This document shows, piece after piece, positions 11,451 to 15,833 of a stretch of DNA of 52,461 nucleotides (position 1 is the stretch's first letter; the number at the start of each line of letters is the position of its first letter). The notes beneath the pieces were generated by a model. That model ran no database searches and was not told the DNA's origin. It saw only the letters and a program-made list of their open reading frames with translations. Location: NCBI GenBank assembly GCA_022574655.1, contig JACZRQ010000005.1, positions 1 through 52,461 of the forward strand. Direction: 5' to 3'. The stretch is from Chloroflexota bacterium (GTDB taxonomy: Bacteria > Chloroflexota > Dehalococcoidia > SM23-28-2 > RBG-16-64-32). A program made the position numbers and the translations under genes.

Positions 11451-12803
11451 ATGATACGAACTGCCGCATCTCTCACCGCACTAACCGTGGTCTTCGCGCT
11501 CGTCCTCTACCTTTCCTACTCCTGCGGAAACGACGGAGACGGCTCCCCGTCACCAACGGCAAACCCCTCACCTGTCGTCGAGCACCCCACCCCAACCACA
11601 ACCCCGCCGAGGCCAAGCCCAACCAGCCAGCCCAAGTTTGCCAGCCAAATTCTTTTTCCCGAAGACACCGCCCTTATTCTTGGTACAGGCTGCTGGCAAT
11701 GCGATGGCCCCACGACTGGACTTCGCCGCATATACCGCGATCCATCTGGCTCCATCCGGATCGATCAGATACTTTCGGTTGATCGGCTCGGCATAGAACG
11801 GCGAGATGATCGGGGTAAGCCATACGTCACCGGATTAGCGATATCGCCCGACGGGACCGACATGATGGTGAGCCTCTGCATAGAAGACAGCTGCGCTAAT
11901 GGAGGGCTCGGTATCTGGGGTCCAAACTCCGCCGTTGTGATCGTTCGTTCAACGGATGGTGGCGTTACTTGGGACATCGTCGGCGAATTTGAGGGAGGTA
12001 TCCATCTCTTGGGCCTCATCGACGACGGCGTGGCCTACGGGTACTGGTACGAGCGCTCGGCTGAGGACCCATCGGTCCAGCCAAGCTTCGCTCTGTTCCC
12101 CACCCTGGACCCGATAGCGCCGCCGGCTGATGATTTCTGGCCGGTGGCCGCTGTCGACGGTCAAATCGTCTGGACCCCGCAGTCTCAAGAGGGCTCACCA
12201 CAGTATTCGGACGGCAGTGAGTTCCCGAACCTTCCTGACGATGCTGACGCTACCATAGCCGTGTTCGACCCATACACACGTGGAGATGATGTACCGGTAA
12301 TCTGGAGCTCACGAAACGGTGGGTACTTCTTATCGCTGGTAACCTCAGACGGAAACGCCAACCAGACTGTGGCGTTACCGTCGAATCTTGGTTCGGTGAT
12401 AGCCGATGGGCTAGGCAGCGTCTACACGAACGTGAGCGTGATAGCGCCCGAATCCGGAGTCGACCTGCCAGCTCAGTTCTCCGGGCAGCTACCCGCCCTC
12501 GTCGACATGAAGACCGGCACTATTCACCCAATTTCGGATCACCTCCAACCTGACGAGCGCAACGCTCGGGACACTCTGTTCGCCGTCCAGACGGGCCCCT
12601 TCGCCCGCGTCGACGACACCCGTTCTTGCCTCAACCTGCGAACCTCGCCGGGCCTCGAAGCCACCAAGGTCGCCTGCCTCGCGGACGGCGTCCTCCTTCG
12701 CCACGACTCCGTCGCCGTCACAAACCAGGACGTCGAGTGGCTCCAGGTCACCGCCCCCGACGGCACGCAGGGCTGGGCTGCCACCGAGTTCCTCGAGTGG
12801 TGA
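11451..12803 (+). CDS. Secreted/lipoprotein-like protein with Asp-box (BNR-like) motif and C-terminal SH3b domain (paralogue 1)
   Basis: 450 aa; N-terminal hydrophobic segment, Pro/Thr-rich linker, IVRSTDGGVTWDIVGEF Asp-box, C-terminal SCLNLRTSPGLEATKVACLADGVLLRH...VEWLQVTAPDGTQGWAATEFLEW. Confidence 0.8.
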   Translation: MIRTAASLTALTVVFALVLYLSYSCGNDGDGSPSPTANPSPVVEHPTPTTTPPRPSPTSQPKFASQILFPEDTALILGTGCWQCDGPTTGLRRIYRDPSGSIRIDQILSVDRLGIERRDDRGKPYVTGLAISPDGTDMMVSLCIEDSCANGGLGIWGPNSAVVIVRSTDGGVTWDIVGEFEGGIHLLGLIDDGVAYGYWYERSAEDPSVQPSFALFPTLDPIAPPADDFWPVAAVDGQIVWTPQSQEGSPQYSDGSEFPNLPDDADATIAVFDPYTRGDDVPVIWSSRNGGYFLSLVTSDGNANQTVALPSNLGSVIADGLGSVYTNVSVIAPESGVDLPAQFSGQLPALVDMKTGTIHPISDHLQPDERNARDTLFAVQTGPFARVDDTRSCLNLRTSPGLEATKVACLADGVLLRHDSVAVTNQDVEWLQVTAPDGTQGWAATEFLEW

Positions 12804-12807
12804 CCCG

Positions 12808-14220
12808 TTGATCCGCACCGCCGCCTCGCTGCTCGGGATGACCGCCGCCTTCGGCCTCGTCCTCTACCTCACCTACAGCGGCGAAGGCGGCTCATCGCCA
12901 TCGGCCACATCTCCCTCACCCTTCGCCGGGCGACCCACCGAAACCGCGTCCCCTAACGTCACCCCGGGTATCACGCCCGCCCCTTCCCCGCTGCCACAGG
13001 TGGTACAGGACTCGGGCTTGACGAAGCTCGAGATGTCCAGCCTCGTGCAGTTCCCGCGCGACATGTCGCTCATCCTCGAGACCGGTTGCTGGCAGTGTGG
13101 CGGCCCGCCTACGGGCCTCCGTCGCATGTACAAGGATGCCGATGGCGAACTGCGAATCGAGCAGCTCCTTTCGATCGAGGCGCTGGAGATTGCGCCGCGG
13201 ATCGCCGAAACGCCCCAAGGGACTCGTGAGCTTCCTCCCTTCATAACCGGACTTGCCGTCGCGCCGGATGCCTCCGAGATGCTCGTCAGCATCTGCGTCG
13301 ATGGTCTGTGCGAGGCACTTCCTCACGCTGGCCCAGCGGAAGGCCGAGTCGCCATCTTCGAGTCCGCAGACGGAGGTGTGACTTGGCACGAACTCGGGCA
13401 TGACTACGCCCCAACGCTAAGTATGCAGGGGTACATAGCCCCTAGCGTTGCCCTCGTCCTTCAGATTGATCCGGACACACTCCGGCGTCTCTACTACCGA
13501 TTCCCGGGCTTCGAGCCACTTGAGCATCAGAACGGCCATATCCCGATTGGATCAGTCAGTGGTGACGTGATCTGGGCAACTAAAAGTGGTCCGCTTACTT
13601 ACGGATCGGGAGAACCGGTTCTCGATCTGGGACCCGACATGTTTGCGGGAACTCGCACGGTGATGTATTCACCGTATGGTCTGGCTCCCTTCACCTGGTT
13701 TTGGGACTTGCCCGGCTTCGGCGAGCCGAGGCACTTCCTGAGCCTCCTCAATCCCGTCGGCGGTGTTATGGAGACGTACGAGACATCCCCGGTTTCCAAC
13801 AATATGCTAACCGCGATCTGGTTGCCCGACGGCCGTGTGGCCGGCACGATGGCGGTCGATCGCGAACAGATACTTGGCGCACCTTCCAACTACATCGGCC
13901 ACCTTCCGGCCCTGCTCGGCCTCGACTCTCACCGTTACAACCTGATCGGGGAACCGTTCCTTGAAGATGATTTCGAACCCGAGCGTGACGTCGTCAATGC
14001 CGTCCAGATCGGCCCCTTCGCTCGCGTTATCGACACCGGCTCGTGCCTCAACATCCGCGAATCTCCCGGTCTTTACTCCACGGTCCTGACCTGCGCAGCG
14101 GACGACGTACTCCTGCGTACCAATGGCCCGGCCTACGCCGGCGACGATAACAACTGGCGCTTCGTCACCGCACCCGATGGCACCTCGGGCTGGGCCGCCA
14201 CGACGTTCCTCGAATACTAG
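12808..14220 (+). CDS. Secreted protein with Asp-box motif and C-terminal SH3b domain (paralogue 2)
   Basis: 470 aa, TTG start; parallels the upstream protein (MIRTAASL, LILETGCWQCGGPPTGLRRMYKDADGELRIEQLLSI, FESADGGVTWHELG, SCLNIRESPGLYSTVLTC...GTSGWAATTFLEY). Confidence 0.8.
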   Translation: MIRTAASLLGMTAAFGLVLYLTYSGEGGSSPSATSPSPFAGRPTETASPNVTPGITPAPSPLPQVVQDSGLTKLEMSSLVQFPRDMSLILETGCWQCGGPPTGLRRMYKDADGELRIEQLLSIEALEIAPRIAETPQGTRELPPFITGLAVAPDASEMLVSICVDGLCEALPHAGPAEGRVAIFESADGGVTWHELGHDYAPTLSMQGYIAPSVALVLQIDPDTLRRLYYRFPGFEPLEHQNGHIPIGSVSGDVIWATKSGPLTYGSGEPVLDLGPDMFAGTRTVMYSPYGLAPFTWFWDLPGFGEPRHFLSLLNPVGGVMETYETSPVSNNMLTAIWLPDGRVAGTMAVDREQILGAPSNYIGHLPALLGLDSHRYNLIGEPFLEDDFEPERDVVNAVQIGPFARVIDTGSCLNIRESPGLYSTVLTCAADDVLLRTNGPAYAGDDNNWRFVTAPDGTSGWAATTFLEY

Positions 14221-15833
14221 GCGCCGGCGACGGGCGCGGGCAGCGGTTCGACCTCGTATAGCGCCTTCCAGGCCTCGAACCCGCCCTCCAGCACCACCGC
14301 GTTGAGCTCGCGGTTTCGTAGCTGCTGCGCCACACGGGCGCTCGTCGCCTCGCCCTGTCAGGTGCAGTAGGCGACGATTAATCGGATGCGCATATCTCCC
14401 GGGTCCCATTCGGAGACTCGGTCGGGAGGCACTCGCACGCTGCCCGGAATCTGCGCGCCGTCCCGCTCGTAGCTCGACGGCGACCGAACGTCCAGGATCA
14501 GCGGCGGGGGCTCCTCACCGTCGAGTAGACCGCGCAGCTCCTCCGGCGTTATCCGGTGGATCGCTGTCTCGTCGTGCTCGAACAGACCGGCGGCAGTGCC
14601 CTCGCGCTCCTCCGCAAGGGTCACGCGTTCTGCCCGTCGCTCGTACCATCCGCTGGCCGTCGTCGCCGTCGCGCCGTGAACGACCGTAGATGCCAGCACC
14701 ACCAGCCCAACCGTTGCCAACAGCAGCTCGGCGCCATCGATCCCAGCCTGCACCACCAGCAACGCTAGGAGGAGCGAGTTCAACCCCCTGGGCCCGAACC
14801 AGCTCACGAACGCGTGCGCCTCCAGACTCATCTTCGCCCGCGCCAGTACGATCCCCAGGACCCCTGGTCGGACCAGGAATATCAGGATCGCCGCCACCAG
14901 AAGCGTCGGCAGCACGTCCACCTCATCCAATATCCCGGACAGCACCGATCCGAACAACACGAACGCCAGCAGCATCGCCATCTCAGACGTGATCTCGCCG
15001 TACTCGATGAAGCAGTCGCAGAGCGTCTGGTTGAGCAGCACCACCCCTAGTCCTGCGGCGAACGCAGCTAGGAACCCGTCCCCGCCCGCCGCCGTCGCCG
15101 CCGTGTACGCGGCGAGAACAATGCCAATCCCGTATAACGCCTGATACTCCCGGCGCACGGCCATGTGCGCGTCGACCCGCGCAATCAGCCACGAACCGAC
15201 GCCACCTATTGCGAACCCGATAAGAGGTCCGACGAGAGCCAGCTTCGCCGCGAATTCGACCCAGCTCGCGAAACCGCCGACGTCCGATCCTGCCACCGCG
15301 ATCAGCACCAGGATCACCGGCAGCACCACGAGGTCGTTCGTCCCTGCTTCAACCGTAAGGATCTGGCGGATCGATCGTGGTATCCGCTCGTCCCGCACGA
15401 TCTCCCGCAGCACCACCGGGTCCGTCGACGCCAGCATCGACCCGCCAATGAACGCTAGTAGCCACCCGAAGCCCAGGATGAGCGCCAGCGACGTCGCCCC
15501 CAGCGCGATAATCAGCACCGTTCCTGGCCCGAGCACCAGCACCGGTACCAGCCAGCGCCTCCCCAGCTCACCGGTGTCCAGCCGCACGGCGTCAAGGAAC
15601 AGCACCAGCGACAGCGTCAGCGTAGCCACGATCTCGAGGTTCTCGTTCTCAGCGCCCACCTCGAAGACGCCAAGCACCCCCTTGCCGAGGATGATACCCG
15701 CGGTAAGGAACAGCAGCGGGAACGACAGTAGCGACCGTTGGACCAGCCCGGATGCGAGCGCCGTGACGGTAAGAATGACGGCAATGACACCAAAGACGGT
15801 GAGAAATTCAGGCATTTGACGTGGCTCGCTCAC
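14217..15833 (-). CDS. CPA1-type Na+/H+ antiporter fused to C-terminal rhodanese domain, interrupted by in-frame TGA at 14358-14360 (candidate Sec codon or nonsense mutation)
   Basis: ORF 14358..15833 gives a multi-TM antiporter (GGSMLASTDPVVLREIVRDERIPRSIRQILTVEAGTNDLVVLPV) plus rhodanese half (LILDVRSPSSYERDGAQIPGSVRVPPDRVSEWDPGDMRIRLIVAYCT). After TGA the same frame reads QGEATSARVAQQLRNRELNAVVLEGGFEAWKALYEVEPLPAPVAGA then TAG. Confidence 0.8.
14327..14341 (-). promoter_or_regulatory. bSECIS-like hairpin downstream of in-frame TGA (candidate)
   Basis: mRNA-sense GCGCC-CGUGU-GGCGC: 5-bp stem, 5-nt loop with G at loop position 2; loop begins 22 nt after the UGA. Confidence 0.35.

Follow-up and report, generated by a model that had tools for sequence, protein, structure and literature searches.

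The window, i.e., the whole stretch of 52,461 nucleotides of a Chloroflexota bacterium analysed here, carries on its minus strand a CPA1 antiporter ORF (15833-14358) that ends at a TGA codon (14360-14358) in the context ...LIVAYCT-TGA-QGEATSARVA...; this codon falls within a rhodanese domain, in its active-site loop. Past the TGA, the frame of the antiporter stays open for 46 codons (14357-14220) up to a TAG (14219-14217). The read-through protein matches the Na_H_Exchanger profile of Pfam (PF00999) with 130.5 bits (gathering score 26.2) and the rhodanese profile PF00581 with 44 bits (gathering score 22.2), the latter over positions 1-101 of 102, a full-length match that is obtained only with read-through. 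The start of the gene is uncertain: GTG 15833 is a mechanical start and an in-frame ATG at residue 7 (15815) lies nearer to the starts of the homologues. The features of the locus are the following:

14217..15833, minus strand: complete predicted selenoprotein gene including its TAG; the product has 538 residues, with Sec at 492
14661..15764, minus strand: CPA1 Na+(K+)/H+ antiporter domain, PF00999, residues 24-391 (Pfam; fold match to PaNhaP/MjNhaP1)
14262..14549, minus strand: rhodanese domain PF00581, residues 429-524, with the TGA inside it (Pfam; related to NF041203 rhodanese_LYCAU, below its cut-off)
14358..14360, minus strand: TGA codon 492, predicted to be read as Sec (TGA in 35/35 distinct fusion genes, Cys in distant rhodaneses)
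14364..14366, minus strand: Cys490, invariant partner in the CxU pair (homologue alignment)
14327..14341, minus strand: bSECIS-like hairpin GCGCC-CGUGU-GGCGC, 17-31 nt past the TGA (pairing, compensatory pairs, codon constraint)
15012..15020, minus strand: invariant C272-x-C274 of the antiporter domain (27/27 aligned fused homologues), a possible redox partner or metal site
14217..14220, no strand: CTAG common to the TAG stops of the selenoprotein gene and of a convergent plus-strand ORF (sequence)

The preliminary description of this DNA had reported the TGA followed by 46 open codons, the shared CTAG and the hairpin with its loop 22 nt past the UGA, and all three stand: read-through yields a complete PF00581 domain, the CTAG belongs to both stops, and the hairpin turned out to be conserved with covariation (see below). 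The convergent region contains two tandem paralogous ORFs on the plus strand (11451-12803 and 12808-14220) with similar N- and C-termini, a CLN[LI]R.SPGL...GW..T.FLE motif and an SH3-like appearance by eye.

The TGA codon among homologues

Homologues were collected from genomes of the same order, from GTDB species genomes, from a sample of 400 Chloroflexota genomes and from relatives of an acidobacterial carrier. The aligned fusion homologues share 35-67% protein identity with the window protein. A sequence was counted as a distinct fusion gene if it retains the rhodanese part with a readable active-site motif. There are 35 such genes, the window gene among them, in Chloroflexota, Acidobacteriota and Armatimonadota, and this codon is TGA in every one, an agreement that chance could not produce; the matches among GTDB species genomes are labelled Chloroflexi, Acidobacteria/Pyrinomonadaceae, Fimbriimonadales and Armatimonadetes. 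A Cys form of the antiporter-rhodanese fusion was not seen among the sampled genomes. The nearest Cys-bearing rhodanese relatives examined, i.e., DedA-rhodanese fusions of Burkholderia, Paraburkholderia and Xanthomonas (YC[VA]C-P-[NS]-E) and one rhodanese of Granulicella (YCTC-P-S-D), have Cys (TGC or TGT) at the Sec position. TGA at a position where relatives use Cys is a classical selenocysteine signature, and an error or a mutation can be excluded. The proposal that the TGA occupies a Cys position of the rhodanese was supported by the comparison with homologues that had been suggested as a check.

In every homologue long enough to show it, the frame beyond the TGA encodes the remainder of the rhodanese domain in conserved form, and the decay of this frame in relatives, named beforehand as an observation that would speak against selenocysteine, was not seen.

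The distribution of the fusion is patchy in the order, where only 2 of 25 genomes carry it, which may reflect loss or horizontal transfer. Searches of plasmids gave no fused homologue and searches of phages gave no match. No conserved partner was found in the neighbourhood of the fusion genes. A gene for a peptidase of family S58 lies directly downstream of the fusion in both acidobacterial loci (L023:4521-5903 and L025:4437-5888) and was not seen there in the other phyla.

The hairpin, the selenocysteine machinery and the decoding of the TGA

The loop of the hairpin starts at nucleotide 22 after the TGA. In bacteria, bSECIS loops are located about 16-37 nt from the UGA. The stem is 100% paired in 27 homologues and paired in 35/35 sequences of the enlarged set, with a loop of the form CG[UG]G[UC]. 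Double-sided, compensatory changes occur at two stem pairs (G-C to A-U in locus L044 and C-G to U-A in locus L040), and one stem pair shows a G-U wobble among homologues; two double-sided pairs were reached in none of 500 shuffles, and no such pair appeared when the pairing partners were slid by 1-3 columns. The constraint is also visible in codon usage: among the 278 codon columns whose residue is sufficiently conserved across the 27 homologues, excess codon fixation puts the hairpin codons 498-502 at ranks 1-4 and 6 (Ser AGC in 27/27, Ala GCC in 24/24, Val GTG in 16/16, Ala GCG in 23/23 and Arg CGT in 22/26), which makes them the most codon-constrained consecutive stretch of the gene, and adjacent codons (e.g., 495-497 and 503-506) show background fixation. 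Folding the 54-nt stretch of the window gene alone gives a minimum-energy structure other than the hairpin, and single-sequence folds show the hairpin inconsistently, so the evidence for this element is the comparative signal, not folding energy. A local Rfam search returned nothing relevant.

The genome to which the window belongs is a bin of 156 contigs with an estimated completeness of 77%. It encodes a tRNA-Sec (selC) with the anticodon TCA (76.9 bits), SelA (545 bits) and SelD (369.6 bits). The selD gene (contig C87:23976-24908; TGA at nucleotide 1531 of the extracted locus) has itself an in-frame TGA at the active site of SelD, MTEPTRLTALASCAG-TGA-AGKAG (SCAG-TGA-AGKAG), so that the host SelD is, as predicted from its sequence, a selenoprotein. 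The search for Sec genes in the source genome, proposed in the preliminary description, thus succeeded for selA, selC and selD and failed for selB, which was not recovered from the bin; an apparent selB on contig C108 was rejected, this best match being EF-Tu. Since selB scores over the cut-off in 16 of the 25 genomes of the order, the incompleteness of the bin is the likely reason for its absence. Of the 22 genomes with the TGA fusion in the Chloroflexota sample, 21 have selA, as do five of six further carriers; it was not recovered in two carriers (G353 and G424). With selA present in 322 of the 400 sampled Chloroflexota genomes (80%), this co-occurrence is consistent with the Sec reading but is weak evidence for it. 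In the window's genome, a gene for a thioredoxin-reductase-like protein is followed on the same strand, after about 64 bp, by the tRNA-Sec gene (contig C5; L001:499-1597).

Two other decodings of the TGA have to be considered. If it were a true stop, a nonsense mutation, a base error or the decay of the gene would have truncated the rhodanese; standard gene calling indeed ends the ORF there, and the lack of a visible selB in the bin would fit. This reading, already raised in the preliminary description as a Cys-to-stop mutation or sequencing error, is refuted by the TGA-carrying homologues, since the same codon recurs in independently assembled genomes, in 35 of 35 distinct fusion genes, with a conserved downstream frame and nucleotide-level constraint on the hairpin, and we regard its probability as negligible. 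Any readthrough would in principle yield the full-length protein, so the UGA could also be read as another residue, either through global reassignment (e.g., to Trp or Gly) or through unspecific readthrough. Global reassignment was rejected, as other ORFs of the window, fpg among them, terminate at TGA; moreover, the genome encodes selA, a tRNA-Sec (TCA) and a selD with a TGA at its own Sec site, the aligned residue of relatives is Cys, and the hairpin is conserved, all of which makes an insertion other than Sec very improbable. TGA-only homologues, the hairpin, selA, selC and selD and the conserved downstream frame support selenocysteine at the TGA, as originally proposed. We estimate with a probability of about 0.95 that this gene encodes a selenoprotein of 538 residues, predicted to consist of a CPA1/NhaP antiporter followed by a C-terminal CxU rhodanese (Cys490, Sec492).

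Structure and active-site residues

The AlphaFold2 model built from the 27-sequence alignment (pLDDT 86.6, pTM 0.81) exhibits an NhaP-type antiporter followed by a rhodanese, and the model built from the single sequence (pLDDT 42) was useless. The best PDB fold matches of the modelled antiporter are PaNhaP and MjNhaP1. Residues D138, N166, D167 and R322, the functional residues of CPA1 antiporters, are invariant, suggesting that the transporter is probably active. In the model, C490 and U492 are located between a strand (486-489) and a helix (493-507), in the active-site loop of the rhodanese. Two alignments differ on the counterpart of the canonical catalytic Cys: in phmmer, Sec492 falls on the Cys in each of 3iwh, 6mxv and 2hhg, and in a profile alignment it is Cys490 that falls on the 'YC' of BH2092 (3nhv) and one of the 6mxv domains.

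The antiporter domain contains an additional pair of cysteines, C272-x-C274 (LCDCF), at the start of a helix predicted at 269-304. This motif is present in all 27 aligned fused homologues and is absent in the four unfused CPA1 relatives compared. In the standard CPA1 topology, the CxC end of this helix and the C-terminal rhodanese should both face the cytosol. The CxC motif may be a redox partner of Sec or a metal site.

Possible function and relation to known systems

In the best-supported reading, the UGA is decoded by tRNA-Sec, directed by the downstream hairpin, via SelA, SelD and presumably SelB. In the gating mechanism that we propose in addition, the cytosolic CxU pair would react with sulfane sulfur (persulfide or polysulfide) or with oxidants to form a selenenylsulfide or a Se-S adduct, and this adduct would gate cation/proton antiport, the invariant CxC of the antiporter being the candidate redox partner. 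We give this gating mechanism, as distinct from the selenoprotein identity, nearly even odds. The coupling of the rhodanese to antiport, also proposed in the preliminary description, is an inference. The boldest reading is tentative and falls short of an even chance. It is a Sec-gated antiporter whose CxU rhodanese would detect sulfane sulfur or the redox state and act through the invariant CxC to switch antiport, so that selenium and sulfur redox status would be tied to pH and ion homeostasis; the family would be kept in Sec form only, across several phyla.

Among the functional alternatives, the main one is a Sec sulfurtransferase tethered to the membrane: the antiporter would serve only to anchor a sulfurtransferase or persulfide reductase enhanced by Sec, without coupling to ion exchange, and the protein would be comparable to the membrane-anchored rhodanese YgaP. 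Rhodaneses with the same CxC loop do exist on unrelated membrane proteins (DedA), and YgaP is known as an integral membrane sulfurtransferase (PMC4730233). All functional residues of the antiporter are nevertheless invariant, and the invariant CxC accompanies the fused form, suggesting that the transport domain matters; we consider the anchor role a plausible but rather doubtful explanation. A role of the CxU and CxC sites in binding or reducing toxic metals or oxyanions, as in detoxification of the chromate, arsenate or mercury type, with the antiporter in support, is unlikely. The rhodanese is weakly similar to ChrE (NF033833) in 12 of 27 members, and a 2026 review links most transporter proteins that contain Sec to resistance against metals or metalloids (PMC13188914), but the window protein scores far below the ChrE cut-off (34.2 versus 120) and no metal-resistance genes were present among the few neighbours scanned in loci L022-L025 and L041.

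Several known proteins share part of this organization. The NhaP/NhaP2 antiporters of the CPA1 family (PaNhaP, MjNhaP1, PRK05326) have the antiporter fold and the invariant functional residues in common with the window protein, whose best named NCBIfam match is the potassium/proton antiporter PRK05326 (123 bits, below the cut-off of 355), but the window protein adds the predicted C-terminal Sec rhodanese and the extra invariant CxC. The fusions annotated as DedA family/thiosulfate sulfurtransferase GlpE in Burkholderia and Xanthomonas likewise combine a membrane protein with a C-terminal rhodanese bearing a YC-x-C-P-[NS]-E loop, whereas their membrane domain is DedA/VTT and Cys replaces Sec. 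The glutathione-gated K+/H+ exchanger KefC (8by2; a distant fold match with a TM-score of about 0.54) is also a cation/proton antiporter whose cytosolic C-terminal domain senses a thiol metabolite. KefC is a CPA2 protein with an RCK domain. It has neither rhodanese nor Sec, so the analogy is one of mechanism and logic, not homology.

On the selenoprotein side, five rhodanese forms, among them a form 3 with CxU, NF041203, appear in a 2026 catalogue of prokaryotic selenoproteins (PMC13188914); form 3 is also catalogued in an earlier survey (PMC9312934). The NF041203 model, rhodanese_LYCAU, has the same fold and the same CxU as the window protein, and 27/27 aligned members match it at E<=1e-5; however, this model covers 126 residues of rhodanese only, whereas the rhodanese of the window forms the C-terminus of a CPA1 antiporter. 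With 67.8 bits, below the curated cut-off of 115, the window protein is a relative that is not filed as a member of NF041203. The transporter entries of the catalogue include YeeE/YedE, P-type (E1-E2) ATPase, SO_0444 Cu/Zn efflux and Sao subunits, which are likewise predicted membrane-transport selenoproteins but belong to unrelated families (PMC13188914). The terms 'antiporter' and 'exchanger' are absent from this catalogue, the older surveys PMC9312934, PMC2398784 and PMC1088965 mention no antiporter selenoprotein, and no paper on an antiporter-rhodanese selenoprotein was found among the open-access papers searched.

A known kind of Sec site, the rhodanese CxU, thus occurs in a new architecture, an apparently undescribed family of CPA1 antiporter selenoproteins. 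Standard gene calling (table 11) stops at the TGA, and the annotation would be a truncated antiporter with half of the rhodanese domain missing; this habit of gene finders is apparently why the family has escaped notice. Apparently uncatalogued so far, this selenoprotein architecture is a predicted Sec member of the NHE/NhaP superfamily, present in at least three phyla, for which no Cys counterpart was seen, and it raises the testable question of whether reactive sulfur or the redox state may control proton/cation exchange by way of selenium.
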